Positions 5,010 through 39,272 of a DNA stretch of 40,310 nt are shown piece after piece. The notes under the pieces were generated by a model. It was not told the origin of the DNA, did no database searches, and worked only from the letters and a program-made list of their open reading frames with translations. This DNA is from Acidobacteriaceae bacterium. Lineage in GTDB: Bacteria > Acidobacteriota > Terriglobia > Terriglobales > Acidobacteriaceae. The position numbers were made by a program, and so were the translations under genes. Location of the stretch: NCBI GenBank assembly GCA_030039675.1, contig JASHVE010000274.1:1-40310 (forward strand). Direction: 5' to 3'. Numbering within the stretch: the first letter of the stretch is position 1; each line of letters opens with the position of its first letter.

Positions 5010-5126
5010 TAGAGCAGTTCCCGAATTACGTCGACTTTATGAGCGCCGTGCAAGGAGGCCTTTTCTTGAGGAAACGGCCACTTAGACATCTTCCTTCGGT
5101 CTACACAAATTCGGGAACTGCTATAG
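5010..5126 (+). repeat. Long-palindrome repeat element, copy A (subfamily 1)
   Basis: 15-bp perfect outer arms agcagttcccgaatt (5013-5027) / aattcgggaactgct (5108-5122); inner hairpin ggcctttt...aaacggcc. Confidence 0.85.
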
Positions 5127-6450: not shown

Positions 6451-6568
6451 TAGAGCGGTTCCACAGTTGATGTGCCCTTGCCGAAGCCGCGGAAGGTGGC
6501 ATTTTCTTTGGGAAAATGCCACTTTGCAGCAGTGGCTTCGGAATATAGCAACTGTGAAACCGCTGTAG
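6451..6568 (+). repeat. Long-palindrome repeat element, copy B (subfamily 2)
   Basis: Outer arms agcggttccacagttg / caactgtgaaaccgct (15/16), inner 11-bp perfect stem gtggcattttc-tttgg-gaaaatgccac. Confidence 0.88.
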
Positions 6569-17411: not shown

Positions 17412-17487
17412 GGGGCTGTAGCTCAGCTGGGAGAGCGCCTCGTTCGCAACGAGGAGGCCAGCGGTTCGATCCCGCTCAGCTCCACCA
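17412..17487 (+). tRNA. tRNA-Ala (anticodon CGC), CCA encoded
   Basis: ggggctgtagctcagctgggagagcgcctcgttcgcaacgaggaggccagcggttcgatcccgctcagctccacca folds as a cloverleaf; anticodon loop TTCGCAA. Confidence 0.95.
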
Positions 17488-17575: not shown

Positions 17576-17600
17576 GTTCGATCCCGCTCAGCTCCACCAA
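17576..17600 (+). repeat. 25-bp exact duplicate of the tRNA-Ala 3' end (att-like)
   Basis: gttcgatcccgctcagctccaccaa at 17464-17488 and again at 17576-17600. Confidence 0.92.
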
Positions 17601-17688
17601 ATCCCTCCCCATCGCCCTTGTGATCCCACGGCGGTAACCACCTTCGAAACAAGCGCGCTTATATACTGGGTCCAATCGAGGTGAACGT

Positions 17689-23724: not shown

Positions 23725-23842
23725 CGGAGCGGTTTCTCAGTTTATATGCCCTCGCTGAAACTGCGGAGGGCGGCATTTTCTTGATGAAAATGGCGCTCTG
23801 TGGCAGCGGCTTCAGGGTATAGCAACTGTGAAATCGCTGTAG
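23725..23842 (+). repeat. Long-palindrome repeat element, copy C (subfamily 2)
   Basis: Outer arms cggagcggtttctcagtt.../...caactgtgaaatcgctgtag; inner gcggcattttc-ttgat-gaaaatggcgc. Confidence 0.87.
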
Positions 23843-31121: not shown

Positions 31122-31258
31122 TACAGCGGTTTCACAGTTGCTATAGCATTTTCGGAATTACTGTAGACCGAAAGCATGAACTCAAGTGGCTTTTTCATCA
31201 AGAAAATGTCACCTTCCGCGGCTTCGGCAAGGGCACATCAACTGTGGAACCGCTCTAG
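31122..31258 (-). repeat. Long-palindrome repeat element, copy D (inverted, chimeric, 137 bp)
   Basis: tacagcggtttcacagttg...caactgtggaaccgctctag; inner ctttttc-atcaa-gaaaatg; left half carries subfamily-1 sequence ctgtagaccgaa. Confidence 0.85.
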
Positions 31259-39134: not shown

Positions 39135-39138
39135 AGGC

Positions 39139-39272
39139 AGTTCACAGTTCGCAGTGCACAGTTGTCAGGGATCAATACCCCTGCAGGATACACCACGTTT
39201 CGCCGGCAGCGGCTTTCGTGCCCAGGTCGCGCCAAAACTGAGAACCTAGAACTGCGAACTGAGAACTGACCA
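39139..39272. repeat. Inverted pair of degenerate GAACTG-unit arrays
   Basis: cagttcacagttcgcagtgcacagttgtcag (about 39139-39170) is approximately the reverse complement of ctgagaacctagaactgcgaactgagaactgac (about 39238-39270). Confidence 0.6.

Follow-up and report, generated by a model that had tools for sequence, protein, structure and literature searches.

Four long palindromes lie in gaps between genes in the window, the 40,310-nucleotide stretch analysed here (contig C487), and raise the question of what kind of repeat they represent and what dispersed them. A first-pass annotation had considered them a MITE- or REPIN-like family of mobile hairpins. From comparisons across the host MAG (4.67 Mb in 623 contigs, 75.8% complete) and related genomes, the first of these readings was retained and the second was discarded. 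We conclude with high confidence that the elements are non-autonomous, RUP-like MITEs for which IS630-type transposases would act in trans, and the repeats of the window itself were very probably moved in this manner. The sequence-based support comprises dispersed copies, TA duplication, a target preference, similarity to the ends of IS630 elements from the same genus, and a host IS630 relic with an A-type end. Although elements of this kind are known, an IS630-type MITE family is new for Acidobacteria as far as the searched literature shows, in which no description of one was found.

Window copies and their folds

The four elements are related and share terminal and central sequence (Table 1). 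Their limits had been placed nearly correctly, each including one extra flanking base, whereas copy D, taken at first for a simple fourth copy, proved to be a composite of B and E sequence. We infer that an E element inserted at a TA of the right arm of a B element (ATATAGC) and that the segment between the two cores was subsequently lost. Self-folding was far beyond chance, with z-scores (DNA) of -5.5 for copy A, -8.9 for B, -6.6 for C, and -4.1 for D, and none of 200 shuffles folded as well as the real copies. The interior of copy D no longer folds as a good palindrome. The same composite is also nested in an A element on contig C524 (L124) with a clean TA duplication, indicating that it moved as a unit despite its poor interior palindrome.

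Table 1. Palindromic elements of the window and their parts
Feature	Position	Strand	Remarks
Copy A, A-type MITE	5010..5125	+	116 bp with both TA counted; target T-TA-G on restoration
Copy A, core hairpin	5052..5083	+	
Copy B, B-type MITE	6451..6567	+	117 bp with both TA counted; target C-TA-G on restoration
Copy B, core hairpin	6493..6524	+	
Copy C, diverged B-type MITE	23725..23841	+	80% to copy B; left TA changed to CG
Copy C, core hairpin	23767..23798	+	
Copy D, composite	31122..31257	-	136 bp; left half from B, then right half from subfamily E and right end from B
Copy D, core hairpin	31184..31215	-	Junction of B half with E half
Copy D, E-derived right half	31140..31183	-	Includes former E terminus GCTATA

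No Rfam match falls at the elements, and the sole known RNA of the window is a tRNA. The last 28 nt of tRNA-Ala(CGC) at 17412-17487 are repeated at 17576-17603, 112 bp downstream, with 96% identity, resembling a partial duplication or an att-like remnant. The window also contains a 23-bp unit repeated in a short tandem stretch at 2351-2425 and an inverted pair of ACAGTTC-type low-complexity repeats at 39138-39168 and 39238-39268; a similar TTCACGGTTCGC run was found upstream of NUP in a relative (L283).

Copy number and subfamilies

A genome-wide count showed that the family is not confined to the window: well over 100 copies were present in the host MAG, belonging to at least three subfamilies (A, B, and E). 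With up to two mismatches allowed, 245 B-like and 90 A-like termini were detected in the host, and the reversed control returned zero for both. The 40 scored B-type copies matched at 95-100% and the 40 scored A-type copies mostly at 82-95%, while about 26 of the 40 copies scored for E were full-length or E-like. Median within-subfamily identity was 0.966 for B (17 identical pairs), 0.966 for E, and 0.906 for A, so the spread of A is older than that of B or E; identity between subfamilies was 0.66-0.73. In G000, contigs C87, C163, C245, C313, C336, and C339 start 33-76 bp from a B terminus, that is, inside elements, showing that the assembly breaks at the centres of the MITE. A single insertion is seen twice at the contig ends L014 and L015, and L128:161-248 is an 88-bp B-type deletion derivative without the core.

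Whole-element BLAST against 249 genomes of the order gave matches in 22 genomes of six genera, all from the window's own family. The core pattern was found in at least 70 stretches of GTDB genomes, all of which, among the matches listed, came from Acidobacteriaceae, Acidobacteriales, Granulicella, or Terracidiphilus MAGs. As these stretches were selected by the core, they were left out of the evidence on its conservation, for which the whole-element BLAST and L283, which was reached through a neighbouring gene, are less biased. Viral contigs, searched for phage carriage, contained no exact core match.

Insertion signature

Element length was 116-117 bp in 146 of 168 unique elements, which carried TA at the left end in 153 cases and at the right end in 152. 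The base outside the TA was mostly Y on the left and mostly R on the right. When restored, the target was YTAR in 122 of 138 copies, compared with a background share of 12-17% among the TA sites of these loci, and the flanks beyond YTAR held almost no information. Empty sites came from three nested insertions, in which an A element is interrupted by a B (L123), a D-type (L124), or an E element (L125): in all three, the A sequence was best restored by keeping exactly one TA, the interrupted element itself being the empty site.

Empty sites were also found among relatives. At the orthologous locus of 29 same-genus genomes, no element was detected by its ends at sites A and B, with some loci running to contig ends. 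MIP was kept beside NUP in 24 of these 29 genomes, and L281, L282, and L288 also kept the holin-like gene, so relatives with ordered flanking genes lack copies A and B. In L283, another family member with different ends and the same core lies upstream of NUP. The elements are short (<500 bp) and non-coding, with inverted ends that pair across 25 divergent elements and with dispersed copies in unrelated flanks, as expected of MITEs. The proposal of a mobile family was upheld, and neither copies restricted to the window nor the same loci occupied in relatives were observed.

IS630 elements as candidate drivers

As had been noted, the window encodes no transposase or RAYT; its contig yielded zero DDE_3 or Y1_Tnp matches. 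The DDE_3 elements of the same genus, 1016-1069 bp long, belong to the IS630 family (DDE_3, 5e-32; NCBIfam transpos_IS630, 1e-38), and the copy in L117 has two overlapping ORFs. Their ends are TA-bounded and of GAGC type (TA-GAGC), and the MITE ends share with them a subterminal box at about +18 to +28 (e.g., CTGTAGACCG and GCTATATCCCG). Mean identity between MITE and IS630 ends was 14.6-16.5 of 30 positions. Other TA sites gave a background of 7.1-7.6 (sd 2.5), with maxima of up to 27/30 that may stem from MITE copies lying in the loci compared. The best match, between the E right end and an IS of G060, reached 24/30 (19/23 past the first seven bases), while A and B ends matched their closest IS630s partially, at 17-20/30. 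Moreover, all 14 of the same-genus IS630 copies sit in YTAR (background 16.6%).

Within the host, a decayed IS630 (C422; L062:1002-1966) has an A-type left end, beginning GAGCAGTTCCCG with its first 12 bases identical to the A end, but its right end has been lost. In the host MAG, with its completeness of 76% and its contig breaks at repeats, no intact IS630 with exact A, B, or E ends was found; the host IS630s seen were relics and one intact copy with other ends. That intact copy, on C225 (L061), was rejected as the driver owing to its differing ends. When A-type ends were screened by their spacing for the partner IS, paired ends lay at most 251 bp apart, and those of the larger pairs that were inspected proved to be nested or chimeric MITEs. 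An intact IS630 bearing GAGCGGTTYCACAG ends would count as the driver. The approximately 32-bp core was not found in the 14 IS630 copies, even with eight mismatches allowed, so the MITEs did not originate by simple internal deletion of one of those ISs.

By analogy with ISY100, an IS630-family transposase encoded elsewhere would recognise the terminal 20-30 bp or so of the element and cut at the TA, and the element would insert at a YTAR site, whereby the TA would be duplicated. Mobilisation in trans and this chemistry are inferred from the analogy. Alternatively, another TA-duplicating DDE family, such as some of the IS5 group, could drive the MITEs, with their likeness to IS630 being convergent. 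Neither GAGC-type ends nor TA or YTAR targets are restricted to IS630, and the 76%-complete host MAG revealed no exact IS630 partner, both of which would suit this explanation. However, it leaves unaccounted for the subterminal box in common with IS630 ends, most evident at the E right end, the identical YTAR preference of the IS630 copies, and the host relic with its A-type end, and we therefore consider it improbable.

Core hairpin and origin of subfamilies

Across genera, the core of about 32 bp is the most conserved part of the element. It differs at only 2-3 of 32 positions among the A, B, and E consensuses (counted by eye), and whole-element BLAST matches in distant genera were limited to the core and the right arm. 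The core occurred in 100 of 104 elements found by their ends alone, many of which lie in loci first fetched by the core or element, and in two of three non-seed elements of the scanned contigs.

The arms behave differently between and within subfamilies. In the outer stem, 11 of 18 pairs had changed on both sides across the 25 divergent elements. Whole-structure covariation was 0.309, compared with 0.112 in the shuffled control and no more than 0.085 in slid alignments; G-U intermediates between subfamilies were rare. Within subfamilies, one-sided changes at paired positions outnumbered compensated ones by 69 to 1 in B, 30 to 0 in E, and 72 to 8 in A, and they mostly broke pairs or gave G-U, with the A subfamily being mixed. 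We read this as a need for matched ends at transposition, followed by mostly neutral decay. The outer arms would thus be inverted because both ends must suit one transposase, rather than through selection for an RNA hairpin, a view drawn from the mostly uncompensated decay after insertion and from the movement of the poorly self-complementary composite of copy D.

Chimeras joined at the core were common, including A/B (L127 and L135), A/E (L126 and L265), E/A (L266), B/E (L262 and L263), and E/B (L264) combinations. In a 121-bp B-type element (L130:109-229), the right inner arm appears to have been copied onto the left to create a perfect inner palindrome, an outcome that template switching across a hairpin would be expected to give; the fold value of this element is -86.1, compared with -65.9 in the B consensus. 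These chimeras and the arm-copied element suggest that new subfamilies probably arise through recombination of half-elements at the shared core together with hairpin-templated arm copying. More tentatively, the elements may form an end-swapping superfamily, in which a core not derived from known IS630s persists in at least six genera of one family while both arms are repeatedly replaced together, tracking IS630 transposases through core recombination and template switching; we regard this joint reading as possible rather than probable. If true, the core would be a functional recombination or replication module and not filler. The fixed length, conserved core, covarying ends, chimeras, and arm-copied element make testable the general question of how non-autonomous elements gain new matching ends upon a change of transposase, and the combination of a conserved core and exchangeable ends deserves to be followed up.

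Genomic placement and host function

The elements had been described as lying only between genes, which is true of the four window copies and fails in general. With empty sites restored, 103 of 129 copies (about 80%) fell between ORFs, whereas the corresponding shares in these loci were 55% for YTAR sites and 20% for random positions; the remaining 26 in-gene copies are probably an upper estimate, as ORFs were picked mechanically. Convergent gaps held 45 of 102 copies, versus 119 of 427 (28%) random between-gene positions, and divergent gaps held 11 of the 102. This placement fits selection against insertion in genes and promoters.

Very stable folds, a core conserved across genera, and the convergent-gap excess could also be expected of host-functional RNA or regulatory hairpins, such as terminators or mRNA processing sites, selected in place. 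Nevertheless, changes at paired positions in B and E are nearly always pair-breaking or G-U (mixed in A), leaving RNA-level selection on each copy unsupported. The window copies are missing from relatives, Rfam recognises none of the elements, and the pneumococcal MITE RUP has the same convergent bias (PMC3049150), making a host function of this sort a poor explanation of the family. The least credible alternative is a REPIN-like element, in which a RAYT (Y1 tyrosine transposase) would move paired extragenic palindromes. Despite the hairpin form, intergenic location, high copy number, and eight Y1_Tnp matches in the host genome, none of these eight loci is bounded on both sides by MITE termini (one has a single copy nearby). 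Moreover, a DDE transposase is what the TA duplication and the TA-bounded inverted ends point to, and the ends match those of IS630.

Comparison with known systems

Their probable mobilisation in trans by IS630-type transposases places the acidobacterial elements beside several known systems. With REPIN/RAYT, they have in common the form of abundant extragenic palindromes, and they differ in lacking a linked RAYT, in their TA duplication, and in a much longer TIR-bounded unit. ISY100, of the IS630 family in the Tc1-mariner superfamily, moves by cut-and-paste into TA, which is duplicated, and its DDE transposase binds the terminal inverted repeats (PMC2170065). The TA target duplication is shared; however, ISY100 and other IS630 elements are autonomous, whereas the MITEs have no coding capacity and rely on a transposase supplied in trans.

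Correia/NEMIS and ERIC/IRU elements, as described in excerpts of PMC2229807, are 100-200 bp long and mostly intergenic, with terminal TA, inverted repeats, and stable hairpins. The acidobacterial MITEs resemble them in all these respects but have other hosts, and covarying ends and a conserved core are not mentioned for these families in those excerpts. The closest likeness is to RUP (repeat unit of pneumococcus), which, according to PMC3049150 and PMC2229807, is about 107 bp long, has about 110 copies and TA-bounded inverted ends, and carries TIRs resembling a same-species IS630, with IS630-Spn1 as the proposed mobiliser; RUP is also in excess between convergent genes (PMC3049150). By these descriptions, the two families agree in size, copy number, TA-bounded ends, IS630-like TIRs, and convergent excess. 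They differ in host phylum, and the exact partner IS of the acidobacterial family is not in the assembly. A further difference is that the acidobacterial MITEs comprise many subfamilies with different ends built around one core.
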